A DNA stretch of 64,000 nt from Hyphomicrobiales bacterium (GTDB lineage: Bacteria; Pseudomonadota; Alphaproteobacteria; Rhizobiales; Devosiaceae). This document shows, piece by piece, positions 1-37,000 of this stretch (position 1 is the stretch's first letter; each line of letters begins with the position of its first letter). The notes below the pieces were generated by a model. The model was not told the origin of the DNA, did not search any database, and saw nothing but the letters and a program-made list of their open reading frames with translations. Both the position numbers and the translations under genes were made by a program. The stretch lies in NCBI GenBank assembly GCA_004144345.1, contig SEEL01000017.1, positions 1 to 64,000 on the forward strand, in the 5' to 3' direction.

Positions 1-121
1 CCACCCACCGGCTACGCCGGTCCCCCCTCCGCGCTTTTTTGCGCTCTGTCCGAAGCAAGCCAAGAGGCGTGCTTCGGCCAACCGCTGATGGGGAGGGAGG
101 GGCTCCACTCAAGGTGCAACT
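1..121. repeat. Intergenic repeat block: H1 palindrome followed by nested H2 hairpin
   Basis: No gene is seen here. Positions 7-21 form a short palindrome, ACCGGC-tac-GCCGGT, followed by a C-rich tract (21-30). The matching G-rich tract is at about 91-102, and the H2 hairpin (50-77) lies between them. The tail GGCTCCACTCAAGG at 101-114 recurs near 16690, 16832 and 16972. The remaining gap (122-243) holds another palindromic unit of the same style near 148-190. Confidence 0.7.
34..86 (+). repeat. H2 hairpin element, copy A
   Basis: The 5' flank TTTTTTGCGCTCTGT is followed by the perfect 8-bp arm CCGAAGCA (50-57) and TGCTTCGG (70-77), with an inner GCC/GGC around the loop AAGA. The 3' flank is CCAACCGC. 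Flanks match seven further copies in this window while the stem sequence differs. Confidence 0.75.
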
Positions 122-141
122 GTCCCACCTACCTCACAGTG

Positions 142-212
142 GGGTCTCCCTCCTCGGCGCGAAGCGCTGGGGAGGGGGGACCACGCGTAGCGTGGTGGGT
201 GGGGTGAGGCTA
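142..212. repeat. H1-type palindromic repeat, inverted unit
   Basis: A hairpin with arms CCTCCTCGGCGC and GCGCTGGGGAGG (two mismatches) around GAA is followed by ACCACGC-gta-GCGTGGT. This is the two-hairpin H1 layout seen at 810-850, 913-953 and 16902-16942, read in the opposite orientation. It ends about 30 bases before the start of the first gene, so it may sit in that gene's 5' leader. Confidence 0.55.
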
Positions 213-243
213 AAACCGAAACTCCAGGCGAAGGAGGATCCGG

Positions 244-774
244 ATGCTTTCACCGCAGACGTTGAGCGAGGCGGAGCGGCGGCTGGTGGCCCAGTGGGCG
301 GCGGATTGCGCCGAGCGGGTCGTCGGGCTGTTCGAGGCAGAGCGGCCGGGGGATGCGCGGGCGCGGGACACGATCGAGCGGGCGCGGGCTTATGCGCGGG
401 GCGAGCTCGATACCAGCGAGGAGATCAGGCGGCGCTTCGGCGATGGCGGAGCGGCCAAGGGGTTGAGCCCGGCCGCGGCGGCGGCCGTGAGGGCGGCCGG
501 GCAGGCGTCGGCGGTTTGCCATATGGGCGCGCATGCGCTGGGGGCGGCGGCCTATGCGGCGAAGGCCGCAGGGCTCGCGGCGCCGGAGCGGCCGGGAGCG
601 GCGCTGGACGAGGTGGCGTGGCAATTGGGGCAGATGTCGCCGGAGGTAAGGGCGGTGCTGCGGACGCTGCCACCGCTGGGCGAGAACCGGTCGGGCCCGC
701 TCGGGCCGGGGCTGCTGGCCTCGGGGGTGTTGGGGGACATGATCCGGGCATTGCAGGCGGGGATGCGGGGGTAG
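244..774 (+). CDS. Imm-5-like (putative immunity protein) domain protein
   Basis: A 176-residue cytoplasmic protein rich in Ala and Gly. The pattern RRLVAQWAADCAERV, then an acidic PGDARARDTIERARAYARGE helix, then a second AARAAGQA..CHMGAHALGAA helical repeat matches the small all-helical family usually labelled 'putative immunity protein'. The name comes from polymorphic-toxin context, but no toxin gene is visible here, so an immunity role is not supported locally. Start ATG 244 has a purine-rich AAGGAGGA just upstream. It stands alone, flanked by palindromic repeats on both sides. Family recognition is from memory of sequence pattern; biochemical function is unknown. Confidence 0.6.
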   Translation: MLSPQTLSEAERRLVAQWAADCAERVVGLFEAERPGDARARDTIERARAYARGELDTSEEIRRRFGDGGAAKGLSPAAAAAVRAAGQASAVCHMGAHALGAAAYAAKAAGLAAPERPGAALDEVAWQLGQMSPEVRAVLRTLPPLGENRSGPLGPGLLASGVLGDMIRALQAGMRG

Positions 775-809
775 GAGTGGATGGGCGGGTGCAAGGTGCA
801 CCCCCCTCC

Positions 810-953
810 ACCGCGCGGAGCGCGGTCCCCCTCCCCCGCAAGCGGGAGAGGATCCCGACTGCAGGCTTCGTGGCGGGGTTGGGTTGGCACAGCGCTCGCG
901 ACCGCCCCCTCCACCAGCTTCGCTGGTCCCCCTCCCCCGCCAGGCGGGGGAGG
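810..953. repeat. Two tandem H1 double-hairpin units
   Basis: Unit 1: ACCGCGC-gga-GCGCGGT (810-826), then CTCCCCCGC-aa-GCGGGAGAG (831-850). Unit 2: ACCAGC-ttc-GCTGGT (913-927), then CCTCCCCCGCC-a-GGCGGGGGAGG (931-953). The layout is the same in both while the first stem differs. They fill the gap between convergent genes ending at 774 and 979. Confidence 0.7.
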
Positions 954-978
954 ATCGGTGCTGACTGCGCGATTGGAG

Positions 979-1530
979 CTAGACGCTGGGGACCATCAGG
1001 CCTTCGTCGCCGTCGAGGGCGGCGATGATGTTGAGGAGGGCGCGGTCGCGGATGCCGAGGGAGAGGAGGTGCCTGGCGGTGTTGCGGACATATTCGGTGT
1101 TGTGGCCGGATTCGCCGAGGCCGGAGCGGACGAGTTTGACCTGCTCGGCGACGCTGAGATGGCCGGCGAATTGCGGGTGGTCTTCGTTGACGAGGTAGGC
1201 GAGGGCGCGGACGGTTTCGCCATGGGCGAGGGTGATGCTGCGCCACGCCTCGCGATAGACGCCGCGATCCTGCTCGCGGGCCTGCAGATAATCGAAGACA
1301 TTCGGCCAACTGGCCGGCTCGATCTCGAAGGCGACGCCGAGGCAGGAGCCGCCGCGGCTGAGGCCGAAAACGAGGCCGGGGCGCTCGGGCGTACCGCGAT
1401 GGCGGTGCGAATAGACCGAGAGCGAGCGATGGGCGCCGCGAAGCAGGGCCCGCTCCGACCTGAGGAAGGCAAAGCCGGGATTCCAGATCAACGAGCCGTA
1501 GCCGAAGACATAGGGGTTGCCATTGGCCAT
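979..1530 (-). CDS. chaC: Gamma-glutamylcyclotransferase, ChaC type
   Basis: 183 residues, the usual bacterial ChaC size. ChaC enzymes cleave glutathione to 5-oxoproline and Cys-Gly in the cytosol. The N-terminal substrate loop YGSLIWNPGF is the family signature, and the REAWR and GYGSL-type fold core follow. The start ATG at 1530 lies a short distance from the divergent DUF2125 gene. The 3' end faces the first gene across an H1 repeat pair that may separate the transcripts. Confident family call; the physiological role (glutathione turnover under stress) is inferred from the family. Confidence 0.9.
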   Translation of the reverse strand: MANGNPYVFGYGSLIWNPGFAFLRSERALLRGAHRSLSVYSHRHRGTPERPGLVFGLSRGGSCLGVAFEIEPASWPNVFDYLQAREQDRGVYREAWRSITLAHGETVRALAYLVNEDHPQFAGHLSVAEQVKLVRSGLGESGHNTEYVRNTARHLLSLGIRDRALLNIIAALDGDEGLMVPSV

Positions 1531-1612
1531 GGCTTTTCGTAGTCGCGCCGCGAATGCGCCGCAAGGCTCGCCGATGAGGATGGCCAGTGCGCAGAACGGA
1601 AAGCCGCCGCTT

Positions 1613-2581
1613 ATGAAGAAGATCGCGACCCTCGCCCTCGTCCTCGTCGTGCTGGTGGTGGGCTATTTCATCGCCTGGTCGTGGGCGGCGGGGCAGGCGA
1701 CGGACTATGTGAAGCAGCTGGAGACGGCCGACGGCGTGACCACGCCGCGCGTCAGCTGCAAGGAATTTGCGATCAGCGGCTTCCCGTTCGGCTTCGACGC
1801 CATCTGCAAGGACGCGACGATCGTTTCGGGCGATGTGACGGTGACGCTGGCCGGGTTCAAGGCGGCCGCCGAAGTGTGGAACCCGACGCATGTGATCGTG
1901 CTCGGGCAATCGCCGATCGGGGTGAGCGATGCGTTCACCGGCAGCCAGAGCCGGCTCGATTTCGCGTCGCTGCAGGCGAGCGCGCGGCTGAGCGGCTGGC
2001 GCATCGGACGGGTGTCGGTGATCTTGGAGCAGCCGGTGTGGAACGACACGGTGCTGGACGACCGGCTGCTGGCCGAGGCGAGCCGGGTCGAGGCGCATCT
2101 GGTGGATGTGCCGGAGCAGCGCGACGCCGAAAAGGGTCTCGCGACGCTGGCCGAGTTCGGCAAGGTCGAAGGGCTGAGCGCGCCGGGGCTGGAGATCGCC
2201 GCGGGCGAAGTGATCTTCGAGGGCGAAGTCACCAATCTTTCGGACGATGTGCGCACCTATGGCGATGGCGATCTGCTGCAGCGCTGGCAGGCGGCGGGCG
2301 GGCGCTTCCTGATCAACAGCCTTACGGGCAATGATGGCGCGACGCGTTTCGAGACCACGGGCACGCTGGGACTCGACAGCGCGGGACGGGCCGAGGGTCA
2401 GCTAAAACTAAGTTCCAATGGCGTGGTCGAGCGGCTCGGCGACATGATCCCCGAACAGTACAAGGGACTGGTGGTCGGCGCGCAGGCGGCAGACGGCTCC
2501 TACAGCCAGACGATCAATCTCGCGGCGGGCGTGGTGTTTTCGGGGATGGTGCCGGCGGGCCTGATCCCGCCGCTGTACTAG
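1613..2581 (+). CDS. DUF2125 domain protein, membrane-anchored
   Basis: 322 residues. An N-terminal hydrophobic helix (MKKIATLALVLVVLVVGYF) acts as an uncleaved anchor or signal. The rest is beta-rich periplasmic sequence typical of DUF2125, including the FPFGFDAICKDATI segment. Function is unknown; the fold resembles AsmA-like lipid or envelope proteins by pattern only. I chose ATG 1613 because the hydrophobic helix follows at once and GGAAAG lies upstream; longer starts (1517, 1574) would put a charged tail ahead of the helix and overlap chaC. The TAG stop shares the four bases CTAG with the convergent gene. Confidence 0.75.
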   Translation: MKKIATLALVLVVLVVGYFIAWSWAAGQATDYVKQLETADGVTTPRVSCKEFAISGFPFGFDAICKDATIVSGDVTVTLAGFKAAAEVWNPTHVIVLGQSPIGVSDAFTGSQSRLDFASLQASARLSGWRIGRVSVILEQPVWNDTVLDDRLLAEASRVEAHLVDVPEQRDAEKGLATLAEFGKVEGLSAPGLEIAAGEVIFEGEVTNLSDDVRTYGDGDLLQRWQAAGGRFLINSLTGNDGATRFETTGTLGLDSAGRAEGQLKLSSNGVVERLGDMIPEQYKGLVVGAQAADGSYSQTINLAAGVVFSGMVPAGLIPPLY

Positions 2582-2802
2582 ACGAGGCGATCGAGCGCCT
2601 GACCGGGCGTCGATGGCTGCTGGATGGTTTCCAGTGCGCGCTCGGTGGCAGTATTTCTGGCGGCGACCGGCATTTGCTTGAGTTCGGCGGCGCGCAAGGC
2701 GGCGTCGAGATCGTTACGGTGCTTGGCGATGAGCGCGACGGCGCCGCTCAGCGTGCTGGCCTCGGAAAACGCAATCGCACGGATGGCGTTGTCGAGGCTC
2801 AT
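2578..2802 (-). CDS. Small hypothetical protein, helical
   Basis: 74 residues starting at MSLDNAIRAIAF. It is predicted helical, Ala-rich, with no signal peptide or membrane segment. The ATG at 2802 lies one base after the stop of the upstream YjfB-like gene, so the two are almost certainly one transcript. No family is recognised. The last four bases overlap the DUF2125 stop on the other strand. Confidence 0.5.
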   Translation of the reverse strand: MSLDNAIRAIAFSEASTLSGAVALIAKHRNDLDAALRAAELKQMPVAARNTATERALETIQQPSTPGQALDRLV

Positions 2803-2803
2803 C

Positions 2804-2992
2804 TCAGGCCCGCTTGTCGACGACAAGCCCCTGGCCGGACGGGGCGGGCGCGGATTTGGCGACTTCCGCCACCATGTTCACGAGCGCCATCTCGATCTCG
2901 TGGTTCTTCTTGATCAACGCCATCTGCGCGGCCTGCTGAGTGCCGGCCATGCGCATGGCAAGAAGTTGGGAGGTGACGTCGGTGGTGTCCAT
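2804..2992 (-). CDS. YjfB-like small protein (putative motility protein)
   Basis: 62 residues. The N-terminal pattern MDTTDVTSQLLAMRMAGTQQ, followed by an amphipathic helix with AQMALIKKNHEIE, resembles the YjfB family, annotated elsewhere as putative motility protein. I prefer ATG 2992 over the upstream TTG at 3022 because YjfB proteins start with MD(I/T). The ribosome site is weak. It is followed directly by another small ORF. No flagellar genes lie in the window, so the motility label is only a family name. Confidence 0.5.
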   Translation of the reverse strand: MDTTDVTSQLLAMRMAGTQQAAQMALIKKNHEIEMALVNMVAEVAKSAPAPSGQGLVVDKRA

Positions 2993-3025
2993 CCCGCTAT
3001 GGTAGGCTGCGGGAGTAAACAAAAC

Positions 3026-3628
3026 TTAACCGGTCTCGGGCGGGTTTGATCCGTGTCCGTAACGTCCGGGGGTCCACAGCACGTCGTTGCGGCCATTAGC
3101 ATTGGCAACGCGGGCGAGGACGAAGAGCAGGTCGGACAGGCGGTTGAGATAGACCATCGCCTCGGGATTGACGTCCGGTTCGGTGAGCACGAGCTCGACC
3201 GCGAGGCGCTCGGCGCGGCGGGTGACGGTGCGGGCGACATGGAGCGCGGCCGCCAGCGCGGTGCCGCCGGGCAAGACGAAGCTGGTCAGCGGCGCGAGGC
3301 CTTCATTGTAATGGTCGATCTGCTGCTCGAGCCAGATTGTCTGCTCCGGCGTGATGCGCAGCGATTTGGGCGTGCCCGCCGGATCGTCGCCCGGGGTGGC
3401 GAGGTCGGAGCCGAGATCGAACAGGTCGTTCTGCACGCGGCCGAGGACGTTATCGACCTTGGGCATGGAGGTGGTGTTGAGGCGCGCCACGCCGATGGAC
3501 GAATTGGCTTCGTCGACGGTGCCGAAGCAATTGACCCGCAGATCGTATTTCAGCCGGCGCGAGCCGCGGACGAGGCCGGTCGTGCCGTCATCGCCGGTCT
3601 TGGTGTAGATCTTGTTGAGCTTGACCAT
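3026..3628 (-). CDS. Cob(I)yrinic acid a,c-diamide adenosyltransferase, PduO type
   Basis: 200 residues. It transfers the 5'-deoxyadenosyl group of ATP to cob(I)alamin to make adenosylcobalamin in the cytosol. The ATP-binding N-terminal motif TKTGDDGTTGL, the SFVLPGG strand and the RRAERL helix are hallmarks of the PduO-type family, distinct from CobA/BtuR. It is the third gene of a run LysR - HIG1 - adenosyltransferase and lies 6 bases after the HIG1 stop. cobS and cobT (cobaltochelatase) at 53.6-56.5 kb indicate aerobic B12 synthesis in the same genome. Confidence 0.92.
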   Translation of the reverse strand: MVKLNKIYTKTGDDGTTGLVRGSRRLKYDLRVNCFGTVDEANSSIGVARLNTTSMPKVDNVLGRVQNDLFDLGSDLATPGDDPAGTPKSLRITPEQTIWLEQQIDHYNEGLAPLTSFVLPGGTALAAALHVARTVTRRAERLAVELVLTEPDVNPEAMVYLNRLSDLLFVLARVANANGRNDVLWTPGRYGHGSNPPETG

Positions 3629-3634
3629 GGTGCG

Positions 3635-3841
3635 TCAGCCGCCGTTGCCGCGGCCGAACAGGAAGAGCGCGCCGAGCAGCACGGCGATGGCCACCGCCTG
3701 GGCGATGACGCGGGCGCGCATCAGCATCTGGCTGCGGTTCTCGTCCTGGCCCTTGAACATGTTCCACAGGCCCATGAACAGAATCACGGCGACCACGCCG
3801 ACCGCGACGATGGCGATGATGTTGAGAATGGTCTGGTTCAT
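3635..3841 (-). CDS. HIG1-domain twin-transmembrane protein
   Basis: 68 residues with two membrane helices (about 7-25 and 46-62) joined by a loop holding RSQMLMRARVIAQ. The R-x-Q-x-LMR-x-R core is typical of the HIG1/twin-transmembrane family found beside PduO-type adenosyltransferases in alphaproteobacteria. HIG1 proteins in other systems bind respiratory complexes; here function is unproven. Its ATG overlaps the LysR stop by four bases (ATGA), indicating translational coupling. Confidence 0.75.
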   Translation of the reverse strand: MNQTILNIIAIVAVGVVAVILFMGLWNMFKGQDENRSQMLMRARVIAQAVAIAVLLGALFLFGRGNGG

Positions 3842-4770
3842 GCGGAATCCAACTGGCCGGGGCGGCGGGAGGTACGCGCGACATAGGCTTCGAGCGCCTG
3901 TGCGAGCCGGTCATAAATGGCACGGATTCGCGGGCTGAGAAACAGTTCACGATGGCTGGTGAGCCAGACCTCAAGCGGGGGCGGGGTCAGCATGGGCAGG
4001 ATTTCGCGCATGCCGGGGGTGTCGTGCACCAGCCCGCGCTGGGCGAAACCGATGCCGAGGCCGGCCTTGATGAGCTCCCAGCCGGCGGTCTGGCTATCGG
4101 TGCGCAGGGCGAAAGAGTCGCGGGTGAAGGAAAAGCCCATGGCGCGGGCGGCACTGATCATCAGATCGGAGCGGTCGAAGCCGATGAGGTCGTGGTCCCG
4201 CAATTCCTCGGGCTTTTGGGGGGTGCCGCGGGCGCCGAGATAGGACTGGTGGGCGCAGGCGACGAGCGGCAGTTCGCCGAGCTTTTTCGCGATCAGTTCG
4301 AGCTGGGTGGGACGGAACATGCGCACGGCGATATCGGCCTCGCGCAGCAGCAGGTTCTCGACCGAATCGGAGGGCACGAGGTCGAGCGAGATGGCGGGAA
4401 ACTCGGTGCGGATCGGGCGCAGCAGGGGCGGCAGCACATAATGGCTGACGACGGTGCTGGCGGTGAGCCGCACGGTGCCCTCGAGCTGGGCCACCGAGCC
4501 TTCGGCGACGAGGGCGGCCTCGGCGAGGGATTTTTCGGCGGCGGCGACCGGCTCATAGAGGCGGAGCGCGGTGGCGGTGGGCTTCAGGCCCTGGATGGTG
4601 CGGTCGAACAGGACCACGCCCAATTGCTGTTCGAGGGTTTCGATGTGGCGGCCGAGAGTGGGCTGGCTGTAGCCGATGCGGCGCGCGGCGGCTGATAGCG
4701 AGCCGTCGGCGACCACCGCCGCGAAGCTTTTCCACAAGGCCCAGTCGGGATCGAGGTTCGCCATGCCCAT
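3838..4770 (-). CDS. LysR-family transcriptional regulator
   Basis: 310 residues. The N-terminal winged helix-turn-helix spans about residues 10-70 (GSLSAAARRIGYSQPTLGRHIETLEQQLG), followed by a LysR substrate-binding domain to about 295. Two in-frame ATGs exist (4770, 4764). It is divergent from the epimerase gene at 4864, the classic layout for a LysR target, and also heads an overlapping run with HIG1 and the adenosyltransferase. The effector is unknown. Confidence 0.88.
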   Translation of the reverse strand: MGMANLDPDWALWKSFAAVVADGSLSAAARRIGYSQPTLGRHIETLEQQLGVVLFDRTIQGLKPTATALRLYEPVAAAEKSLAEAALVAEGSVAQLEGTVRLTASTVVSHYVLPPLLRPIRTEFPAISLDLVPSDSVENLLLREADIAVRMFRPTQLELIAKKLGELPLVACAHQSYLGARGTPQKPEELRDHDLIGFDRSDLMISAARAMGFSFTRDSFALRTDSQTAGWELIKAGLGIGFAQRGLVHDTPGMREILPMLTPPPLEVWLTSHRELFLSPRIRAIYDRLAQALEAYVARTSRRPGQLDSA

Positions 4771-4830
4771 GCAATCATGAATAGCCAGGGTGCAGTTCTG
4801 GCTGATTTTCCTTTGTTTGTGAATTGCCGA

Positions 4831-4848
4831 TGTTGAGACTGTTCAACA
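4831..4848. promoter_or_regulatory. Candidate LysR operator
   Basis: Inverted repeat TGTTGA-N6-TCAACA in the 93-base gap between the divergent LysR gene and the epimerase gene, only five bases before the AGGAGG ribosome site of the latter. The dyad and position suit a LysR-type site; no binding evidence exists. Confidence 0.4.
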
Positions 4849-4863
4849 CGCAAGGAGGCCGCC

Positions 4864-5835
4864 ATGGCCAAGGGCAAAGTCGTCATTCTCGGGATCAACG
4901 GGCATATCGGGCAGGCCGCCGCGCGGGCCTTCGTGGCAGCGGGCTGGGACGTCACCGGCATGGGGCGGACCGACAAATACCGGACGCCCGGCGTGCGGTT
5001 CGTGACAGGCGATTCGGATTCGGTGGCGGAGACGCGCCGGGCGATCGGTGACGCGGCGGTGGTCGTCAATGCGCTGAACCTGCCCTATGCGGCGTGGGAC
5101 AAGGGGCGCAAGGAAGCGCTGATGGGCCGGGTGCTGGAGGCCATGGGCACGACCGGCAAGACGATGCTCTTTCCGGGCAACATCTACAATTTCAGCCGCA
5201 CCGACCGGGTGGTGACGCCTGATCTGGCTCAGCGGCCGGAGACGCCGCGCGGGGCGATCCGGGTGCGGGTGGAGCAGATGCTGGAAGCGGCCACGGCGCG
5301 CGGCGATCTGCAGGTGATCATCCTGCGGGCCGGCGATTTCTACGGGCCGGGCTCCTCGGGCGACTGGTTCGACCAGGCGATCCTCAGCGCCAAGGGCAAG
5401 GTGCAGATCATGGGCGCGCCGGGCGCCGGGCACAGCTGGGCCTATCTGCCGGATCTGGCGCGGGCCTTCGAGGCGCTGGCCGCGGTGCGCGGGACGCTGG
5501 GGGTGTTCGAGCGCTTCCACTTCGCCGGCAATTACGTCACCGGCGACGAGATGGCGGCGGCGATCGTCAGGGCCGCGCCGGTGCCGCTGAAGGTGACGCG
5601 ATTCCCGATGTGGCTGCTGGCGGTGATGGGGCTGGTCAGCCCGCTGATGCGCGAGATCGGCAAGATGGCCTATCTCTGGCGCAACAGCATGGAGTTGCGC
5701 GACGGCCGACTCGACGAATTGCTGGGGCCCGATTTCAGTACGCCGTTCGAGTCGGCGGTGGCGGCGACGGTGGCGCCGTTCTTTGCGGGCGAAACGGCAA
5801 GGGCGATGGAACCGGCGACGGCCCTGCGCGGTTGA
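4864..5835 (+). CDS. NAD-dependent epimerase/dehydratase-like protein
   Basis: 323 residues with an N-terminal Rossmann fold. The nucleotide-binding turn is GINGHIGQAA (family form GxxGxxG) near residue 10. An atypical SDR active site is suggested by the FYGPGSSGDWF segment rather than a clear YxxxK. A C-terminal hydrophobic helix (MWLLAVMGLVSPLM) is unusual. A strong AAGGAGG at 4852 supports ATG 4864. It is divergent from, and probably controlled by, the LysR regulator. Substrate unknown. Confidence 0.8.
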   Translation: MAKGKVVILGINGHIGQAAARAFVAAGWDVTGMGRTDKYRTPGVRFVTGDSDSVAETRRAIGDAAVVVNALNLPYAAWDKGRKEALMGRVLEAMGTTGKTMLFPGNIYNFSRTDRVVTPDLAQRPETPRGAIRVRVEQMLEAATARGDLQVIILRAGDFYGPGSSGDWFDQAILSAKGKVQIMGAPGAGHSWAYLPDLARAFEALAAVRGTLGVFERFHFAGNYVTGDEMAAAIVRAAPVPLKVTRFPMWLLAVMGLVSPLMREIGKMAYLWRNSMELRDGRLDELLGPDFSTPFESAVAATVAPFFAGETARAMEPATALRG

Positions 5836-5844
5836 GCGGGCCGT

Positions 5845-5863
5845 GGCACCCATAATGGGTGCC
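5845..5863. other. Intergenic hairpin
   Basis: GGCACCC-ATAAT-GGGTGCC forms a perfect 7-bp stem nine bases after the epimerase stop. No T-run follows, so it may protect the 3' end or act as a Rho-associated stop rather than as a standard intrinsic terminator. Confidence 0.4.
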
Positions 5864-10793: not shown

Positions 10794-10811
10794 TTCCCGG
10801 CGCTCTGTCTC

Positions 10812-10874
10812 TTTCTTGATGCTCTGGACCAAGCGGTTACGCGCTGACGCGCTCCAGCCGCTTGGCCAACCGCA
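10812..10874 (+). repeat. H2 hairpin element, copy B0
   Basis: Perfect 8-bp arms CCAAGCGG (10829-10836) and CCGCTTGG (10858-10865), with an inner GCGC/GCGC. 5' flank GATGCTCTGGA, 3' flank CCAACCGC. Confidence 0.65.
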
Positions 10875-10915
10875 GGGTTCCCCACCCACCAGCCTTCGGC
10901 TGGTCCCCCCTCTTA

Positions 10916-10968
10916 GCTTTCTTGCGCTCTGTCCATTCCACGCGAAGACGCGTGAATTGGCCAACCGC
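10916..10968 (+). repeat. H2 hairpin element, copy B
   Basis: 5' flank CTTTCTTGCGCTCTGT. Arms CCATTCCACGCG (10933-10944) and CGCGTGAATTGG (10949-10960) pair at 10 of 12 positions around AAGA. 3' flank CCAACCGC. It lies between the C-rich and G-rich arms of an H1 unit. Confidence 0.7.
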
Positions 10969-11048
10969 GTGTCGGGAGGGAGTCCCGACTGCAACCGCTC
11001 TTGCGCTCGGTCGCGAACGCTGGCTCAACTCGCCCGTGAGGGGGAGCG

Positions 11049-11975: not shown

Positions 11976-11982
11976 GCGAGTC

Positions 11983-12030
11983 TTTGTCTGTCTGGCCGAG
12001 CGAGCCCGAGCAGGCTCTCTCAGCCAACCC
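11983..12030 (+). repeat. H2 hairpin element, copy C
   Basis: Arms TGGCCGAGCGAGCC (11993-12006) and GGCTCTCTCAGCCA (12013-12026) pair at 12 of 14 positions around CGAGCA; 5' flank TTTGTCTGTC, 3' flank ACCC. It overlaps the dsbB stop codon (12020-12022), so it also encodes the last DsbB residues. Confidence 0.65.
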
Positions 12031-12553
12031 TGTTGCGGTTGGCGCGGATGAGCATCGCCGCGGCGAGGAGGCCGACCACGGCGGCCGAGATCAGCGCATT
12101 GTAGCCGGCGAGCGAAATGCCGAGGAAGCGGAACTGGACTTCGTCGCAGGGCACGACGCGCTCGATATTGCCGGCGCTGAGATCGTCGAAGCTGAGACCC
12201 GTACCGGTGCCGGTGCAGGCGGTCGGGCCGGGCCAGAAGCCCCATTCGACGCCGGCATGGTAGCCGCCCATGTAGGTGGACCAGACGAAGATGGCGGCGA
12301 CGAGCGCCATGCCGATGAACCAGACGGCGCGCGGCAGGCGGTTCCAGAGGACCAGCAGCAGGGCGAGGAGCGGCAGGCCCCAGTAATAGGCGAGGCGCTG
12401 TTCGAGGCAGAGCTCGCAGGGGACGAGCCCGCCGATCAGCTGGCTGCCCCAGGCGCCGGCGATGGTGGCTAGGGCGAGCAGGAAGGCGAGGCCGGCAAGG
12501 AGCCGGTCCAGCGGCTGCGATCGGGTGGAAAGCGTGGCGTCGGTCATGGTCAT
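12020..12553 (-). CDS. dsbB: Disulfide bond formation protein B
   Basis: About 177 residues with four membrane helices. The quinone-proximal pair CELC and the second periplasmic pair in PTAC...VVPC match DsbB, which reoxidises DsbA with ubiquinone in the inner membrane. Three close in-frame ATGs exist (12559, 12553, 12547); 12553 has AAGGA at 8 bases. No dsbA is nearby. The 3' end runs into an H2 hairpin. Confidence 0.85.
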   Translation of the reverse strand: MTMTDATLSTRSQPLDRLLAGLAFLLALATIAGAWGSQLIGGLVPCELCLEQRLAYYWGLPLLALLLVLWNRLPRAVWFIGMALVAAIFVWSTYMGGYHAGVEWGFWPGPTACTGTGTGLSFDDLSAGNIERVVPCDEVQFRFLGISLAGYNALISAAVVGLLAAAMLIRANRNRVG

Positions 12554-12622
12554 ATCCATAGTCCTTTGACGGCGGATTGAGGCTCTTCCTTGGCGCAAAG
12601 CAAGAGGATCGCCGCGGTGTGA

Positions 12623-16509: not shown

Positions 16510-16540
16510 GGGCTGACGCAGTGGTGTGGCCCGCCCCACC

Positions 16541-16616
16541 CACCGGCTTCTTTTGCGCTCTGTCCGAACGAGCCTGAGAAGGCTCGCTCGGCCAACCGCT
16601 AGTGCCGGTCCCCCTC
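16541..16616 (+). repeat. H1 palindrome split by H2 copy D
   Basis: CACCCACCGGCTTC (16539-16552 region) is the left half of an H1 unit and GTGCCGGTCCCCCTCC (16602-16617) is its right half. The complete H2 element lies between them. H2 arms CCGAACGAGCC (16564-16574) and GGCTCGCTCGG (16581-16591) pair at 10 of 11 positions around TGAGAA; flanks are TTTTGCGCTCTGT and CCAACCGC. Confidence 0.7.
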
Positions 16617-16619: not shown

Positions 16620-16690
16620 GCTTTCTTGCGCTCTGTCCAAAGCACGCGAAGACGCATGCTTCGGCCAACCGCTGAGTGAGGAGGGATGGG
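16620..16690 (+). repeat. H2 hairpin element, copy E, inside an H1 C-rich/G-rich stem
   Basis: 5' flank CTTTCTTGCGCTCTGT; arms CCAAAGCACGCG (16637-16648) and CGCATGCTTCGG (16653-16664) pair at 10 of 12 around AAGA; 3' flank CCAACCGC. The surrounding CCCCCTCC (16610-16617) and GGAGGGATGGG (16680-16690) are complementary tracts of the second H1 hairpin. Confidence 0.7.
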
Positions 16691-16740
16691 CTCCACTCAA
16701 GGTGCTGTTATCACCGCCACAACGATTATGCCGACTGCCC

Positions 16741-16767
16741 TGGATTCCCGCCTGCGCGGGAATGACG
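16741..16767. repeat. REP-like palindrome, copy 1
   Basis: ATTCCCGC (16744-16751) and GCGGGAAT (16756-16763) around CTGC, with edges TGG and GACG. This is the widely distributed bacterial 'TGGATTCCCGC...GAATGACG' palindrome type. Confidence 0.7.
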
Positions 16768-16901
16768 TAGGTGCTGTGCTTGGGGTCGCCCCCACCACCG
16801 GCTTCGGCCAACCGCTGGTGGGGAGGGATGGGGTCCACTCAAGGCGCTGGTATCGACGCGGTGGGCGGGTACCAGGCGGAGTGTTTGGGGGCGCCCCCAC
16901 C

Positions 16902-16942
16902 ACCGGCTTCGCCGGTCCCCCTCCCCCGTTGCACGGGGGAGG
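16902..16942. repeat. Intact H1 double hairpin
   Basis: ACCGGC-ttc-GCCGGT (16902-16916) followed by CCTCCCCCGT-tgc-ACGGGGGAGG (16920-16942). It serves as the uninterrupted reference for the split copies nearby. Confidence 0.75.
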
Positions 16943-17002
16943 ATATCCAGAGCCCCGGCATCGACTATCCACGGCTCCACTCAAGGGTGTCGTCATCACC
17001 GC

Positions 17003-17029
17003 GTCATCCCCGCGAAGGCGGGGATCCAG
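17003..17029. repeat. REP-like palindrome, copy 2 (inverted)
   Basis: ATCCCCGC (17006-17013), loop GAAG, GCGGGGAT (17018-17025). It is the same family as 16741 in the opposite orientation. Confidence 0.65.
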
Positions 17030-30902: not shown

Positions 30903-30907
30903 CAACA

Positions 30908-31131: not shown

Positions 31132-32487
31132 ATGACGCAGGTTCAAAAGCCGCTCTGGCACCGCTTCCTGTTCTTCCTCATTCCGCTGATGATCAGCAAC
31201 ATCCTGCAGGCGCTGTCGGGGACGATCAACTCGATCTATATCGGCCAGCTGCTGGGCGTCGAAGCGCTGGCGGCGGTGTCGACCTTCGCGCCGATCATGA
31301 TCCTCCTGATCTCGTTCATCGTCGGGCTCGCCTCGGGGTCGACCGTGTTGATCGGGCAGGCCTATGGCGCCAAGAATTTCGACAAGCTCAAGCAGGTCGC
31401 CGGTACGACGCTGACGGCGTCGTTCATCCTCGGCCTCGTCGTTGCCGCGATCGGCATCTTCTTCACCGAGCCGCTGATGCGGCTGCTGGGTGCGCCGGCC
31501 AATGTGTTCGAGCAGTCGGTGAGCTATGGCCGCATCGTGCTTATCGGCATGCCCGGCTTCTTCATCTTCCTGATCGTCACCTCGGTGCTGCGCGGCGTGG
31601 GCGACACGACGACGCCGCTGATCGCGCTGGTGCTGTCGATCCTCGTTGGTCTCGTGGTGACGCCGGCCCTGATCCTCGGCTGGTTCGGCCTGCCGCAGAT
31701 CGGCGTCGATGCTGCGGCGGTGGCCTTCATCGTCGGCTTCATGGCGGTGCTGGTGTTCCTGTTCTTCTATCTGCGCGCGCGCAAGAGCCCGCTCGCGCCG
31801 GATGAAGAACTGCTGCGCGACCTCAGGATCAATGTGCCGCTGCTCGGCACGATCCTCCGCCTCGGTATTCCGGCCGGTGTGCAGATGGTGGTCTCGTCGC
31901 TGGCGGCGATCGTGGTGGTGGGCATCGTCAACCGCTTCGGCTCCAACGCCACGGCGGCCTATGGCGCGGTCAACCAAGTGTTGAGCTATATCCAGTTCCC
32001 GGCCATGTCGATCATGATCGCGGCGTCGATCTTCGGCTCGCAGGCGATCGGGGCGGGGCAGAACGACCAGCTGCGGCGGATCGTGCGCACGGCGCTGATG
32101 ATGAACCTCATCATCACCGGCGCGCTGGTGATCATCGCCTACATCTTCTCGCAGCATCTGGTGGCGCTGTTCATCACCTCGCCTGAGGTGATGGAGCTGA
32201 CTGAAACGCTGCTCCATATCGTCTTGTGGAGCGTGGTGCTGTTCGGCTTTGCCGGCGTGTTCTCGGGCATGATGCGCGCTTCGGGCGATGTGCTGATCCC
32301 GATGCTGCTGAGCCTCGCGGCGATCCTGCTCGTGGAAGTGCCGGTGGCGCTTTACCTGTCGAGCACGTCCCTCGGGCTCAACGGCATCTGGTGGGCGTAT
32401 TGCGCAAGCTTCACCACGATGCTGCTGCTGCAGGCGGGCTACTACTGGTTCTTCTGGCGGCACAAGCCGATCAAGAAGCTGATCTGA
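31132..32487 (+). CDS. MATE-family efflux transporter
   Basis: 451 residues with twelve predicted helices in two six-helix halves (about 10-215 and 240-445), the MATE layout. Typical segments are LPLMISNILQALSGTINSIYIGQLLG and GSTVLIGQAYGAKN. It exports cationic compounds with Na+ or H+. It has a weak ribosome site. It is convergent with the acetyltransferase gene, overlapping it by 17 bases. Confidence 0.88.
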   Translation: MTQVQKPLWHRFLFFLIPLMISNILQALSGTINSIYIGQLLGVEALAAVSTFAPIMILLISFIVGLASGSTVLIGQAYGAKNFDKLKQVAGTTLTASFILGLVVAAIGIFFTEPLMRLLGAPANVFEQSVSYGRIVLIGMPGFFIFLIVTSVLRGVGDTTTPLIALVLSILVGLVVTPALILGWFGLPQIGVDAAAVAFIVGFMAVLVFLFFYLRARKSPLAPDEELLRDLRINVPLLGTILRLGIPAGVQMVVSSLAAIVVVGIVNRFGSNATAAYGAVNQVLSYIQFPAMSIMIAASIFGSQAIGAGQNDQLRRIVRTALMMNLIITGALVIIAYIFSQHLVALFITSPEVMELTETLLHIVLWSVVLFGFAGVFSGMMRASGDVLIPMLLSLAAILLVEVPVALYLSSTSLGLNGIWWAYCASFTTMLLLQAGYYWFFWRHKPIKKLI

Positions 32488-33187
32488 GCGCCCGCTCGAT
32501 CCAAGCAACCGCGAAGGGGATAATCTCCTTCGCCTCGACCAGAACAGCAGACGCGGCGCCCACGGTGCCGCGTTTGCCTTTTCCGGTGGCGAGGAAGTCC
32601 TCGACGATGCTGGCGAAATAGTCGTCGGCGAGCCCGTCCGGCGGATCGGACGTGTCGAATTCCTCAAAGGCCCGCCAGACGATGCGGCCGTTCTCGAGGA
32701 ACGGCGACTCATAGCGGCGGATGCGCTTCGGGCTGAACCGGGCGAGGTGCTCGGCGTGGTGCAACAGCGTCATGGTGTCGAGCGGCGCGCCCAGCATCAG
32801 CGTCTTGCCGCCGGCTTCGACCAGTTTGCCGAGCGGCGATTGCGGGCCATAGCCATAGTCCAGCGCATGATCGGCGGTGAACCAATCGGCGCGGGCGCCT
32901 ATCGCCGCCATCGAGGCGCCGGGATTGCTGCTGCGCCGCGCGCCGGGGGTGGTGCGCAGCATTTCGGGGAAATAGCCATTGTCGCGGATGGACCGCGAAG
33001 TCAGCGGATCGAAGGGCCGGGCTTCGCCGCGCAGATCGGGATGGTTATCGACATCGTCCTGGCCGTCCCAATCGGTGTAGCCGAGGATGGTGCCCTCGGC
33101 GCCGACCGCGTCGCGCAGCGCATCGAGAATGGATTGCGCGCCGCCCATGACGGGCCCGACCTGGCGGAGGGCGGCATGGACCAGCAC
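32471..33187 (-). CDS. Aminoglycoside 3-N-acetyltransferase family protein
   Basis: 238 residues from GTG 33187. VHAALRQVGPV, GTILGYTDWDG, NPGASMAAIG and LLHHAEHLA are AAC(3)/FrbF family features; the family acetylates antibiotics or other amines with acetyl-CoA, and many chromosomal members have unknown substrates. Reading frame and homology continue upstream for 22 codons (LTADLQRLGLGPGDAVLVH), without ATG, GTG or TTG, up to a CTG at 33253 overlapping the HxlR stop. The true start may therefore be 33253. It is downstream of an HxlR regulator. Confidence 0.8.
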   Translation of the reverse strand: MLVHAALRQVGPVMGGAQSILDALRDAVGAEGTILGYTDWDGQDDVDNHPDLRGEARPFDPLTSRSIRDNGYFPEMLRTTPGARRSSNPGASMAAIGARADWFTADHALDYGYGPQSPLGKLVEAGGKTLMLGAPLDTMTLLHHAEHLARFSPKRIRRYESPFLENGRIVWRAFEEFDTSDPPDGLADDYFASIVEDFLATGKGKRGTVGAASAVLVEAKEIIPFAVAWIERALRSAS

Positions 33188-33249
33188 GGCATCGCCGGGC
33201 CCCAGGCCCAGCCGCTGGAGATCAGCCGTGAGGCCCGATCGCGTCGCGG

Positions 33250-33669
33250 TCAGTTCGTCGCCCCGGCATAGCGGCGCTCGGGCTTGGGCTCGGCCATCGC
33301 CTCATGCACGCGGTCGTAATTGGCGCGCGCCTCGTTGACCGAATGCATGTGCTCGGCGGCCCAGTTCCACAGCGTATCGAGCGGCGTGGTGAGGGTGCGG
33401 CCGAGTTCGGTCAGCTGATACTCAACGCGGGGCGGGATTTCCGGATAGACGGTGCGGGTCACGAGGCCGTCGCGCTCGAGATTGCGCAAGGTCAGGGTCA
33501 GCATGCGCTGGCTGATGCCGCCGATGGTGTGGCGCAATTCGTTGAAACGCATGGTTTTGCGGGTCAGCTGGCCGACGACCATGACGCTCCATTTGTCGCC
33601 GATGCGATTGAGGATGTCCCCCATCGCGTTGCACACCTGCGATTTGTTGCCGTCCTCGCGAAAAGCCAT
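33250..33669 (-). CDS. HxlR-family transcriptional regulator
   Basis: 139 residues, winged helix. CNAMGDILNRIGDKWSVMVVGQL and RFNELRHTIGGISQRMLTLTLRNLERDGLV are the HxlR signature, with the N-terminal Cys (VCNAM) often involved in redox or aldehyde sensing. ATG 33669 has AAGGA 7 bases upstream. It is probably co-transcribed with the acetyltransferase. Confidence 0.88.
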   Translation of the reverse strand: MAFREDGNKSQVCNAMGDILNRIGDKWSVMVVGQLTRKTMRFNELRHTIGGISQRMLTLTLRNLERDGLVTRTVYPEIPPRVEYQLTELGRTLTTPLDTLWNWAAEHMHSVNEARANYDRVHEAMAEPKPERRYAGATN

Positions 33670-33833
33670 GATCGAATCCTTGATTGACGGGCACATATAT
33701 AGCGCAGGTTACTGTCTGTGCCTAGGGCTGGGTTTGATAGTTGGCCACTCCAGCGACATGAAGGCACGCCGCTGATCGTTGACAGGCGGCCTGCCGGATG
33801 TTCGTTCATTTTGGGAATTGGGAGGCAATATCA

Positions 33834-36299
33834 ATGAGCGAAGACCGGATCCGCGAACTCGTGGAGCAAATGACGCTGGCCGAGCAGGTCAGCCTCCTGT
33901 CGGGCGAGGATATCTGGTCGTTGCCGGCCATTCCGCGGCTGGGCATCCACAAGCTGCGCGTGACCGACGGGCCGAATGGCGCGCGGGGCGGCGGCGGGCT
34001 GATCGGCGGGGTGAAATCGGCCGCTTTCCCGGTCGGCATTGCGCTGGGCGCCACCTGGAACGCCGAGCTGGTGCGCGAGGTGGGCGCGGCGCTGGCCGAC
34101 GAGGTGAAGTCGAAGGGCGCGCATGTGTCGCTGTCGCCGACGGTCAACATCCACCGCTCGGTGACCAATGGGCGCAATTTCGAGTGCTATTCGGAAGATC
34201 CGGTGCTGACGGCGCAGCTGTGCGGCGCGTTCATCGTCGGCCTGCAGGAGCAGGGCATCGGCGCGACGATCAAGCATTTCGCCGGCAATGAATCGGAGAT
34301 CGAGCGCACCACCATCGATTCGATGATCGACGAGCGGGCGCTGCGCGAGGTTTATTTGCTGCCGTTCGAACACGCGGTGAAGGTGGCGGGCACCTGGGGC
34401 ATCATGAGCTCCTACAACCAGCTCAATGGCAGCTTCACCTCGGAGAATGAGTGGCTGCTGACGCAGGTGCTGCGCAATGAGTGGCACTATACGGGCATTG
34501 TGATGTCCGACTGGTTCGGCTCGCATTCCACGGCGCCCACCGTCAATGCCGGGCTCGACATGGAAATGCCCGGCCCGCCGCGCGACCGCGGCCAGAAGCT
34601 GATCGATGCGGTGCAGGCAGGGGAGGTTTCCGCCGACATGGTGCGCGAGCGCGCGCTCAATGTGCTGCGGCTGGCGGTGCGCACCGGCGCCATCGACGAC
34701 GAACGGCCATTCGAGGAACATGCCGACGACCGGCCGGCGCATCGCGCGCTGATCCGGCGCGCCGGCGCCGAGGCGAGCGTGCTGCTCAAGAACAATGGTC
34801 TATTGCCGCTCGATGCGGCGACGCTGGGCAAGGTGGCGGTCATCGGCCCCAACGCGCAGACGGCGCAGATCATGGGTGGTGGCAGCGCGCAGCTCAATCC
34901 GCATTATGCGGTGTCACCGTGGCAGGGGCTGATTTCGGCGCTGGGCGAGGACCGGCTGAGCTATGCCGCGGGCGCCACCAACCATCGCTGGGAGCCCAAG
35001 CTCGACCGGCGCTACGACGTCGAATATTTCAACTCGCCCGACCTCAACGGCGAGGTGGTGCATCGCGACACGCATGAGGGTGGCGAGATGTTCCTGTTCG
35101 GCCTCGTCGCGCCGGGGATCACCAATCCGCAAAGCTGGTCGGCCCGCTACAGCACGAGCTTCACGCCGGAGACGACGGGCGAGCATCGCGTCGGCATCTA
35201 CGCCACCGGCTATGCGCGCATCAAGATCAACGGCGTGCTGGTGGCCGATGCGTGGAAGGGCTGGAAGCCCGGCCGCACCTTCTTCGAAGAGGGCTGCGAC
35301 GAAGTGGTGGGCGCCGTCTATCTCGAAGCCGGCCGCGCCTACAGCGTCGAGGTCGAGTACGGCAAGAAGCCGGCGCGCATCCTCGATTTCACCGGCATCC
35401 GGATCGGCATTGGCCTGCCGCTCGGCGACAAGGCAATCGCCGCCGCCGCGGCGCTGGCGCGCGCATCGGACGTGGCCATCGTCTGCGTCGGCCGCAATGG
35501 CGAATGGGACACCGAGGGCAGCGATCTGCAGGACATCAAGCTGCCGGGACGGCAGGACGAGCTGGTGAGCGCGGTGGCCAAGGCCAACAAGCGCACAATC
35601 GTCGTGCTGCAGACCGGCGGGCCGGTGGAAATGCCGTGGCTCGATCAGGTCGCGGCGGTGGTCGAGGCCTGGTATCCGGGGCAGGAGGCGGGCAACGCCA
35701 TCGCCGATGTGCTGGTCGGCAATGCCGAGCCGGGTGGCCGCCTGCCGCAGAGTTTCCCGGTGCGCTGGAACGATAATCCAGTCCATTCGCAGGACCGCGA
35801 GATATATCCCGGCCTCAATGGCAAGGTACGCTATGAGGAAGGCGTGTTCATCGGCTATCGCCACTATGACCGGCAGGGCATCGAACCGATGTTCCCGTTC
35901 GGCTTCGGCCTCTCCTATACGAGCTTCGAGCTGGCCGACCTCGCGGTGGATGACAGCCGCTTCGAGAGCGATGGCGCGGCGAGCGTCTATGTCAGCGTCA
36001 CCAACACCGGCAGCCGCGCCGGCAGCGAAGTGGTGCAGCTCTATGTGGGCGACGAAGCCTCGTCGGTGCCGCGTCCGGTCAAGGAGCTCAAGAGCTTTGC
36101 CAAGGTGTACCTGCAGCCGGGCGAGACGCAGCGGGTGAAGCTCGAGCTCGACGAGCGCGATTTCGCCTTCTACAGCGTCGACGCCAAGCACTGGCTGGTC
36201 GAGCCCGGCGCCTTCACACTGATGGTGGGGACGTCCGCGACGGACATCAAGCTCACCGCCCAGCTCCGCCGCAGCAACAGCGTGCTGATCCCTGTGTAG
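33834..36299 (+). CDS. GH3 beta-glucosidase with PA14 domain
   Basis: 821 residues. GH3 N-terminal barrel (1-300) with catalytic nucleophile D226 in GIVMSDWFG and KHFAGNE at 148; alpha/beta sandwich split by a PA14 domain (about 385-530, YFNSPDLNGEVV to FFEEGCDEVV); C-terminal fibronectin-like domain (about 700-815). There is no signal peptide, so it acts on imported oligosaccharides. GGGAGG precedes ATG 33834. H2 copy F follows the stop. Confidence 0.92.
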   Translation: MSEDRIRELVEQMTLAEQVSLLSGEDIWSLPAIPRLGIHKLRVTDGPNGARGGGGLIGGVKSAAFPVGIALGATWNAELVREVGAALADEVKSKGAHVSLSPTVNIHRSVTNGRNFECYSEDPVLTAQLCGAFIVGLQEQGIGATIKHFAGNESEIERTTIDSMIDERALREVYLLPFEHAVKVAGTWGIMSSYNQLNGSFTSENEWLLTQVLRNEWHYTGIVMSDWFGSHSTAPTVNAGLDMEMPGPPRDRGQKLIDAVQAGEVSADMVRERALNVLRLAVRTGAIDDERPFEEHADDRPAHRALIRRAGAEASVLLKNNGLLPLDAATLGKVAVIGPNAQTAQIMGGGSAQLNPHYAVSPWQGLISALGEDRLSYAAGATNHRWEPKLDRRYDVEYFNSPDLNGEVVHRDTHEGGEMFLFGLVAPGITNPQSWSARYSTSFTPETTGEHRVGIYATGYARIKINGVLVADAWKGWKPGRTFFEEGCDEVVGAVYLEAGRAYSVEVEYGKKPARILDFTGIRIGIGLPLGDKAIAAAAALARASDVAIVCVGRNGEWDTEGSDLQDIKLPGRQDELVSAVAKANKRTIVVLQTGGPVEMPWLDQVAAVVEAWYPGQEAGNAIADVLVGNAEPGGRLPQSFPVRWNDNPVHSQDREIYPGLNGKVRYEEGVFIGYRHYDRQGIEPMFPFGFGLSYTSFELADLAVDDSRFESDGAASVYVSVTNTGSRAGSEVVQLYVGDEASSVPRPVKELKSFAKVYLQPGETQRVKLELDERDFAFYSVDAKHWLVEPGAFTLMVGTSATDIKLTAQLRRSNSVLIPV

Positions 36300-36350
36300 T
36301 TTTTGCGCTCTGCTGAGCGATCCCCACCGGGTTCGCTCAGCCAATCGCGG
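36299..36350 (+). repeat. H2 hairpin element, copy F
   Basis: 5' flank TTTTTGCGCTCTG; perfect arms CTGAGCGA (36313-36320) and TCGCTCAG (36333-36340) with inner CCC/GGG; 3' flank CCAATCGC. It lies between convergent genes and begins at the GH3 stop. Confidence 0.7.
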
Positions 36351-36354
36351 GGTG

Positions 36355-36936
36355 TCAGGCGGCCAGCTTCTGCGCCCCGAACTGCGCGGCGTGGAGGCCG
36401 AGATAGTAGGCGAGGTTGTCGTCGGAATGGCCGAGAGCGGCCATGACGCGTTCCATGAAGCTGACGGGCGAGGTGCCGGCGGCTGTCACCACGCGGTTGG
36501 CGAGCACGGCGCTGGCGCCGTCGCGGTAGTGCGACGCGCCGGCATAGCCGGTCTGGTCGAGAAAGCCCGGCGCGTTGCTGGTGTGGGCGATGCCGTCGAG
36601 CAGCCCGGCTTTCGCCATCTGTAGCGTGCCGGCGCAGATGGCGGCAACGATCTTGCCTGCCGAATGCATGGCGCGAAGTGCGGCGGTGACGTCGGGCGCG
36701 TCCGGCTGTTCCCAGGCGCTGCCGCCGCAGACGATCAGCGCGTCGGTCGCTGCCGGGTCGAGATCGCTCAGCGCGAGATCGGGGGTCACCCTGAGGCCGC
36801 CCGAGGAGGTCACCGGCTGGCCGTCGGGCGTCGCATAGAGCGTCTCGAAGCCGTAGTAACTGCGGCCCACCGCGTTCAACAGCGCCGTCTCCCAATCCGC
36901 AAAACCCTCGGTGAGGATGGTCACGATCCGCGTCAT
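36355..36936 (-). CDS. DJ-1/PfpI family protein
   Basis: 193 residues, class I glutamine amidotransferase-like fold. Nucleophile elbow AAICAGT and the acidic residue in ILTEGFADWE are present. Members act as glyoxalases, amidases or chaperones; exact role unknown. ATG 36936 with AGGAGA is chosen over 36993, which lies within H2 copy G. Confidence 0.82.
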   Translation of the reverse strand: MTRIVTILTEGFADWETALLNAVGRSYYGFETLYATPDGQPVTSSGGLRVTPDLALSDLDPAATDALIVCGGSAWEQPDAPDVTAALRAMHSAGKIVAAICAGTLQMAKAGLLDGIAHTSNAPGFLDQTGYAGASHYRDGASAVLANRVVTAAGTSPVSFMERVMAALGHSDDNLAYYLGLHAAQFGAQKLAA

Positions 36937-36950
36937 TCTTCGATTCTCCT

Positions 36951-37000
36951 GCATTGCTCTGGCCAATCGATCCCGAACGGGCTCGCTGGCCAACCGCCAT
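36951..37000 (+). repeat. H2 hairpin element, copy G
   Basis: Arms TGGCCA...CGA...CCC and GGG...TCG...TGGCCA (36960-36974 and 36979-36992) pair with two internal mismatches around GAAC; 3' flank ACCGCC. It lies upstream of the PfpI-like gene start, between divergent genes. Confidence 0.6.

Follow-up and report, generated by a model that had tools for sequence, protein, structure and literature searches.

Hairpin units in the window

The 64,000-nt stretch of DNA analysed here (the window) is part of a contig, C107, that extends to 70.9 kb in a genome of 4.10 Mb in 132 contigs (hereafter the home genome). It carries eight copies of a short hairpin unit that belong to one family, designated H2, and that all read on the plus strand. 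Their positions and their matches to a covariance model (CM) of the family are as follows:

33..87, plus strand, H2 unit 1; CM match with E 1.6e-18, in the training set
10810..10875, plus strand, H2 unit 2, long-stem form; CM match with E 7.8e-7, outside the training set
10916..10970, plus strand, H2 unit 3; CM match with E 2.8e-15, in the training set
11982..12032, plus strand, H2 unit 4, degenerate flanks; CM match with E 1.9e-5, outside the training set
16547..16601, plus strand, H2 unit 5; CM match with E 1.1e-17, in the training set
16620..16674, plus strand, H2 unit 6; CM match with E 3.5e-17, in the training set
36297..36350, plus strand, H2 unit 7; CM match with E 5.3e-12, in the training set
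36951..36999, plus strand, H2 unit 8; CM match with E 5.7e-9, in the training set

All eight sites were recovered by the model (E 1.6e-18 to 1.9e-5); six belong to its training set and only those at 10810-10875 and 11982-12032 were found without training, these two having the lowest bit scores among the eight. The stem of unit 1 is formed by CCGAAGCAAGCC and GGCGTGCTTCGG around an AAGA loop, and the unit is flanked by TCCCCCCTC and GGAGGGA, which belong to host hairpin D (see below) in its filled form. Unit 2 measures 51 bp from GCTCTG to CCAACC and is followed after 40 bp, in the same orientation, by unit 3, itself located within a host D hairpin starting at 10904. Unit 4 has convergent genes on both sides and overlaps the minus-strand gene 12020-12559 by 13 bp at its stop end. 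Units 5 and 6 are arranged head-to-tail, the former corresponding to a 53-bp insert (16551-16603) that splits host hairpin A, whose arms are CCACCGGCTTC (16540-16550) and GCCGGTCCCCC (16604-16614). Finally, unit 7 fills the gap left by a convergent gene pair, with stop ends at 36299 and 36355, and overlaps one of the two genes by 3 bp; unit 8 has divergent genes on both sides. The sites had been described as intergenic, which holds for six units; the overlaps of units 4 and 7 are with genes predicted by a simple gene caller.

The initial annotation had grouped these sites by shared flanks and a single orientation. The family stands, but exact GCGCTCTG and CCAACCGC flanks occur together at only four of the eight sites, and site 11993 has neither. 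The looser pair GCTCTG-N24-40-CCAAYC occurs seven times in the window, always on the plus strand, for 0.40 expected, a count reached in none of 100 shuffles. Across the home genome, the strict pattern is found in 20 forward and 13 reverse copies, against one forward and one reverse when read backwards. Shuffles and reversed-pattern controls thus rule out that the flanks are chance low-complexity matches, and the genome-wide counts show that the family as a whole has no fixed orientation. Within the window, uniform orientation and the absence of copies beyond 37 kb both hold, but a ninth unit lies on the minus strand of the same contig at 65516-65569. At the gathering score, Rfam matches in the window correspond to two tRNAs only, and H2 matches no Rfam family. 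CGTC-like REPs are also present in the window.

Structure and covariation of the H2 unit

The unit of ca. 55 bp consists, in this order, of a T-rich stretch of ca. 8 bases, GCGCTCTG (in some copies shortened to a GCTCTG form), one or two bases, a stem arm, a loop, the other arm and CCAACCGC. While the 12-bp stem is variable in sequence, the alignment columns GCTCT and CCAA-CGC are invariant, and the flanks GCTCTG and CCAACCG are unpaired. Loops are purine-rich, the commonest being AAGA (27), GAGA (24) and GAAGA (9); H2 may bear some likeness to the lambda nut site, with its boxA and a boxB having a GAAGA loop. The T-rich stretch precedes the hairpin in most of the copies printed, as had been noticed at the outset, and the other strand has an A-rich stretch following it; an intrinsic terminator was therefore rejected. 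An outer stem was likewise rejected as a general part of H2, own and swapped flanks giving -19.5 and -19.7 in Devosia sp. 67-54 and, slightly in favour of own flanks, -21.5 and -20.2 in the home genome.

The covariance model was built from 30 copies, of which 28 were chosen by their flanks alone anywhere in the genome and two are window sites. The corresponding alignment (A1) includes 28 of 29 distinct copies chosen by flanks (33 strict-pattern copies in total), the long-stem copy L014 being omitted. Changes on both sides of a pair were counted in 61 cells for 22.1 in shuffles (reached in 0 of 500) and for at most 23 when partners were slid, and standard pairs make up 87.1% of stem cells for 68.6% in shuffles. 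Further pair types, one of five covariation measures, were not raised (18 for 16.2 in shuffles). When units were taken by flanks alone, own and swapped arms gave -16.2 and -11.5, -17.5 and -13.4, and -17.5 and -13.5 kcal/mol in three genomes (49, 75 and 29 distinct stems, respectively), so that own arms pair better by 4 to 5 kcal/mol; the reversed-flank control yielded no unit. A single case can be followed between orthologous units of the home genome and Devosia sp. 67-54, in which the fourth pair, paired by eye, differs (A-T against G-C). Own-arm pairing and double-change counts both exceed their swapped or shuffled controls, in line with the earlier proposal that the stems are conserved as structure.

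Distribution among Devosia genomes

The model search that had been suggested for the home genome and its relatives returned 95 matches in the former and 114 in Devosia sp. 67-54 (G008), both at E <= 0.1. At E <= 0.001, 38 matches were found in D. nanyangense (G018; about 40 overall) and 16 in G005, and the other 15 of the 19 genus genomes had one match each in three cases and none in 12. In the other genera of the family, none of 117 genomes had a match at E <= 1e-5. With stricter filters, six of 136 genomes family-wide had a match at this limit, all from the own genus, and a first survey of 42 genomes outside the genus gave one weak match (E 0.0056). Of the stretches with the H2 pattern in named records, all 18, from two MAGs, belong to Devosia.

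For the analyses below, 105 units were retained in Devosia sp. 67-54 after removing five of the 114 matches (four antisense within a unit and one weak) and four located in contig C6. In the home genome, removal of 15 duplicates from overlapping loci reduced 109 rows to 94, which differs from the 95 above because E-value limits scale with the bases searched. In D. nanyangense, 34 of 42 rows were used (20 chromosomal and 14 prophage); the eight dropped were weak prophage matches, matches antisense within units and, next to one unit, a weak inverted match. A simple home-made script supplied the gene calls, many draft contigs end near H2, and the stretches around H2 matches represent a non-random genome sample.

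Host hairpins, empty sites and arrays

H2 is mobile, as indicated by host hairpins that occur either empty or with one unit in their loop and by orthologous sites that are devoid of it. Host A (CCACCGGCTTC-GCCGGTCCCCC) was found in 14 empty and three filled copies in the fetched stretches of the home genome (15 empty copies entered the polarity test below, duplicates being recognised at different widths); the filled copies, including that at 16540-16614 in the window, are longer by 52, 53 and 55 bp. By eye, no target-site duplication, which together with terminal inverted repeats would mark a MITE, was visible at the three filled sites, whose ends vary by a few bases. Host B (CCTCATCCG..GCACCTTCTCCC) occurs in five empty and two filled copies in the home genome and in one of each in D. 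nanyangense, and host C in four empty and two filled copies in D. nanyangense and three empty and no filled ones in Devosia sp. 67-54. Host D, which is less sure since it is defined by its two ends only, has 19 empty and seven filled copies in the home genome.

Orthologous DNA in G005 is collinear with the regions of units 7 (36297) and 8 (36951), with 75% identity overall and diverged flanks, and contains neither unit. Seven sites compared between the home genome and Devosia sp. 67-54, hand-picked from gene matches, comprise five without H2 in the latter, one with a common orthologous unit and one with the same flanking genes and units in both genomes that do not align.

Units also occur in arrays, which in Devosia sp. 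67-54 contain two to seven units with a start-to-start distance mostly of 46 to 66 bp (96 bp for one pair). Close neighbours are always head-to-tail (65 of 65, from four sets of 14, 48, 2 and 1) and never inverted, a count made after dropping antisense matches within units and one weak inverted match of D. nanyangense (20 bits, at 25 bp from the nearby unit, L185). In three of the four sets neighbouring units are more alike than units elsewhere, likeness being 0.72 and 0.61, 0.86 and 0.67, 0.79 and 0.72, and 0.66 and 0.66 for neighbouring and distant units, respectively, with the last two sets drawn from two pairs and one pair.

Orientation of H2 relative to replication

The orientation of H2 tracks the replication strand that local GC skew indicates, not gene strand, and this replication polarity is the strongest new result of the analysis. 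Orientation equals the sign of GC skew for 67 of the 80 clusters in the home genome (p 6e-10) and for 44 of the 57 in Devosia sp. 67-54 (p 5e-5). On the D. nanyangense chromosome, 13 of 18 clusters agree, which alone is not significant (p 0.096), and the prophage of the same genome gives 10 of 13 (p 0.092, not significant). By comparison, agreement with the net local gene strand is 30/80, 27/57 and 5/18 in the three genomes, with the home genome leaning to the opposite (p 0.03). When both were fitted jointly in a logistic model of 168 clusters, prophage included, a coefficient as large as that of skew arose in 0 of 2000 permutations and one as large as that of gene strand in 1676. Agreement with skew was still 60/70, 44/57 and 13/18 once 400 bp around each unit were excluded, and counting per contig instead of per cluster gave 37 of 46 (p 4e-5, two ties omitted). 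The same sign is found at fourfold-degenerate codon sites, which are beyond the influence of the H2 unit: skew in genes of the H2 strand and of the other strand, respectively, is +0.070 and -0.392 in the home genome, +0.040 and -0.217 in Devosia sp. 67-54 and +0.026 and -0.225 in D. nanyangense. A difference of this size arose under random orientation in 0 of 1000 cases in each of these three sets; the prophage gave 75 of 1000.

In the window, GC skew is +0.13 at the left and falls to zero at the right, so that the eight plus-strand copies fit the polarity and their uniform orientation is a local matter; the strand bias relative to replication, for which a test had been proposed, is found, with GC skew standing in for a mapped origin. 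Because the G-rich strand is the leading strand in most bacteria, H2 as written here would lie on the presumed leading strand, i.e. the template of the lagging strand. Empty host A hairpins near H2 share this polarity (15 copies, 1/500) and those of host B none (5 copies, 257/500), and the former suggests that polarity may not be special to H2. Searches of open-licence PMC papers turned up no account of the H2 family or of such a polarity, and none on Devosia repeats.

Probable spread of a mobile hairpin at the replication fork

Taken together, H2 is probably (ca. 0.6) a non-autonomous mobile hairpin of ca. 55 bp, REP-like, that has multiplied in some Devosia and spread through single-stranded DNA at the fork. 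Insertion would take place on the lagging-strand template, as single-stranded DNA, into hairpin loops and into gaps just after genes, and inserted units would then multiply in tandem. The conserved flanks would presumably be the recognition site of the moving enzyme, which may be lost. Stems might stay paired either because recognition requires the folded unit or because imperfect palindromes undergo correction when the DNA is replicated. The initial annotation, whose interpretation is partly supported as a whole, had placed selection on structure in RNA or in single-stranded DNA; as to the spread of H2, the latter is favoured by the polarity and by units having inserted into hairpin loops. 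Room for a role in RNA is left by the nearness of stop codons in two of the three genomes and by a weak excess of mismatches that, read on the opposite strand, would be G-U wobbles.

Gene context and alternative explanations

Counting clusters in which the CCAACCGC end is no more than 15 bp from the stop of a gene directed towards it gives 21 of 52 in the home genome and 27 of 54 in Devosia sp. 67-54, i.e. 48 of 106 in the two genomes for about 25 expected. Random placement and orientation in the same gaps predicted 12.7 and 12.5, respectively, and the observed values were reached in 0 of 2000 simulations. These clusters are those with called genes on both sides (52 of 80 and 54 of 57). The end with the T-run is not in excess near stops, with 12 for 12.8 expected in the home genome and 15 for 12.6 in Devosia sp. 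67-54. Between co-directional genes, units of these two genomes are antisense to both in 40 cases and sense to both in 20 (p 0.01), the corresponding numbers for the D. nanyangense chromosome being 11 and 1. If the skew reading is right, genes adjoining H2 would more often be head-on to the fork.

Such a placement could mean that H2 is kept for a task in RNA at gene ends, where it would shield or destabilise the 3' end of the mRNA or stall the last ribosome, which we regard as unlikely. The transcript of the adjoining gene would then present a stop, a few nucleotides, GCGGTTGG, the hairpin and CAGAGCGC. PMC5082802 states a stop-proximal effect for REP located within 15 nt of a stop codon, which offers a precedent. 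Mismatches within stems point the same way, given that a function in RNA predicts more wobble pairs on the strand that acts: on the strand as written here, A-C mismatches (61 and 39, i.e. 100) outnumber G-T ones (34 and 24, i.e. 58), so that G-U wobbles would be commoner on the opposite, gene-sense strand, and this appears though the model that collected the units tolerates G-U on the strand as written. The bias is a hint only, since related units entered the count as if they were independent and the same sign could arise from deamination of cytosines on one strand. Against a task in RNA stand the orientation of H2, which follows skew rather than genes, the lack of stop nearness on the D. nanyangense chromosome (3 of 18, counted there without simulation), the many units far from stops in large intergenic repeats, and the 12 of 19 genus members without a match. 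In the D. nanyangense prophage, moreover, six of the seven units located between two minus-strand genes read with the genes and not against them.

The agreement of the arms might also result from mutation alone, if template switching corrects quasi-palindromes and structure is under no selection. Such correction is expected to leave double changes as well as arrays of near-identical units; it would account for the stems but not for the conserved flanks, the insertions or the polarity. Mismatches have also lasted at the fifth and ninth pairs of the stem, where they are frequent (11 and 14 of 30 copies), so that correction is incomplete, and we hold it to be quite unlikely that the arms agree through template switching alone.

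Polar DNA signals are known in bacteria, as with KOPS, Chi and single-strand initiation hairpins, and the polarity of H2 together with its conserved unpaired flanks would suit a signal selected for chromosome organisation or replication, the polarity then being due to selection and not to insertion. This is improbable for an element that, unlike core replication signals, has no match in 12 of 19 genus members and is absent from orthologous sites, and whose units are found inside other repeats.

Finally, contig C5 of D. nanyangense holds a lambda-like prophage with 18 H2 matches in 32 kb (19046 to 51052), several of them weak, among genes for terminase, portal, protease, tape-measure, tail-tip and integrase proteins. 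Nine of the 18 lie inside called ORFs, the ORF calls being uncertain, and 12 have, by eye, CCCC(A/G) directly before CGCTCTG, which forms an outer stem with YGGGG after the unit. A similar form is found in the home genome at L145:7041. Three pattern scans of a viral collection returned 1, 0 and 0 contigs, the one repeating a unit of Devosia sp. 67-54, and five short contigs of related phages contained no convincing H2 (best 13.2 bits). On these scans a phage element at large was set aside. The prophage matches and the L145 copy would suit a phage element leaking into the chromosome; the near-empty viral sets speak against this origin, which we regard as improbable.

Search for a mobilising enzyme

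No match to Y1_Tnp (PF01797, RAYT and IS200/IS605) was found in the 19 genus genomes, the control being positive in five of 14 known genomes, E. coli included; a RAYT or IS200/IS605 mobiliser was therefore rejected. A reverse transcriptase or group II intron was rejected as well, RVT_1 having no match above cut-off in the 19 genomes and one weak match in G009, which is itself free of H2. The same holds for an identity with integron attC, the integron integrase model TIGR02249 being above cut-off in none of the 19 genomes and in no positive control either; the weak matches to it, which every genome and each of the 14 controls gave, look like general tyrosine recombinases. An IS91-type mobiliser was rejected because the single genome with Y2_Tnp, G006, is free of H2; none of the 14 controls had a match. 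The mobiliser of H2 may thus be lost, diverged beyond these models or of another kind.

Comparison with known systems

Broadly defined, REP-like elements are short hairpins dispersed in many extragenic copies near gene 3' ends, and H2 qualifies as one of them, with the reservation that stop nearness is absent from the D. nanyangense chromosome. It is REP-like by size, copy number and placement and stands outside the GTAG and CGTC super-families. With GTAG REPs and the RAYT/REPIN systems it shares a dispersed extragenic hairpin of small size, ca. 100 copies, a conserved unpaired foot and a location near gene 3' ends. Unlike these, it has no GTAG (GT[AG]G) at either foot on either strand, it occurs in genomes without a Y1 transposase match (0/19), and it does not form the inverted pairs (HH/TT dimers) of REPINs. 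Placement at gene ends is not new, since according to PMC3733652 most REPs of convergent gaps in two species are located less than 20 bp from both ORF ends. The CGTC REPs, as described there, are also alphaproteobacterial, are also placed at gene ends and apparently have no dedicated transposase, but they carry an unpaired CGTC tag, a stem of 8-9 bp and a CCA-like tail. H2 lacks CGTC and instead has a 12-bp stem, GCTCTG/CCAACCG flanks and head-to-tail arrays. Br-REP1 and Br-REP2 of Bradyrhizobium, as presented in PMC5082802, are likewise hairpin repeats of an alphaproteobacterium, found in 3' UTRs and unevenly distributed among relatives, and their two printed consensus sequences, compared by eye only, do not resemble H2.

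The survey of GTAG and CGTC repeats published in 2013 (PMC3733652) ends on how transposase-less REPs spread. H2 makes this question testable, being abundant in some Devosia, absent from relatives and provided with recognisable empty sites. Its orientation seems to report on the replication fork, and its copies offer natural covariation data on which part of the hairpin needs to be recognised. We tentatively raise the idea, for which the odds remain rather low, that H2 represents a kind of mobile DNA in which a single hairpin uses the lagging-strand template to jump into other hairpins' loops. Its mover would be an enzyme that belongs to none of the Y1, Y2, reverse-transcriptase or integron-integrase families, and transposase-less REPs may spread likewise.

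The closest parallel in behaviour is with IS200/IS605 elements, for which hairpin recognition and use of the lagging-strand template are described in PMC6006769. H2 differs from these in being one hairpin without a gene, in genomes that have no Y1 match. Its orientation nevertheless behaves as lagging-strand hairpin transposition of the IS200/IS605 type predicts, provided that the G-rich strand is the leading one.

Repeats surrounding the H2 units

Besides the H2 hairpin units, the window has other intergenic repeats, some of which are mosaic and serve as H2 hosts:

1-30, further mosaic intergenic repeat, H2 host
886-955, further mosaic intergenic repeat, H2 host
10880-10910, further mosaic intergenic repeat, H2 host
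16769-16911, further mosaic intergenic repeat, H2 host
16740-16767, minus strand, CGTC-tagged REP-like repeat
17002-17029, plus strand, CGTC-tagged REP-like repeat

The two CGTC-tagged repeats share a single intergenic stretch with H2 units 5 and 6, and both fit a consensus for such repeats with zero mismatches; no match to it is expected in shuffled sequence.

Across the window (1-64000), GC skew drops from +0.13 at the left end to zero at the right end. Copies of host A, a hairpin repeat, located near H2 are also polarised with the skew (1 of 500 random orientations, n = 15 copies); for host B near H2, the same test gave no polarity.

Many contigs of the draft genome (C13, C28, C53, C69, C75, C107, C113, C117, C118, C119 and C124, among others) have an H2 unit no more than a few hundred bases from where they start or stop, as if the assembly had been broken by the mosaic repeats.

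H2 in a prophage and a viral contig

Among viral contigs, the sole H2 match is found in an IMG/VR contig (L197, 9306-9360). Since this unit and its flanks are the same as those at C5:569606 of Devosia sp. 67-54, the latter may lie inside a prophage. In D. nanyangense, a lambda-like prophage (contig C5, L177-L179) displays 18 H2 matches, some of them weak, over 32 kb (19046-51052), a density far above that of the chromosome. The unit is preceded by CCCC(A/G) in 12 of these 18 matches and followed in most by a GGGG(C/A)CCC stretch.
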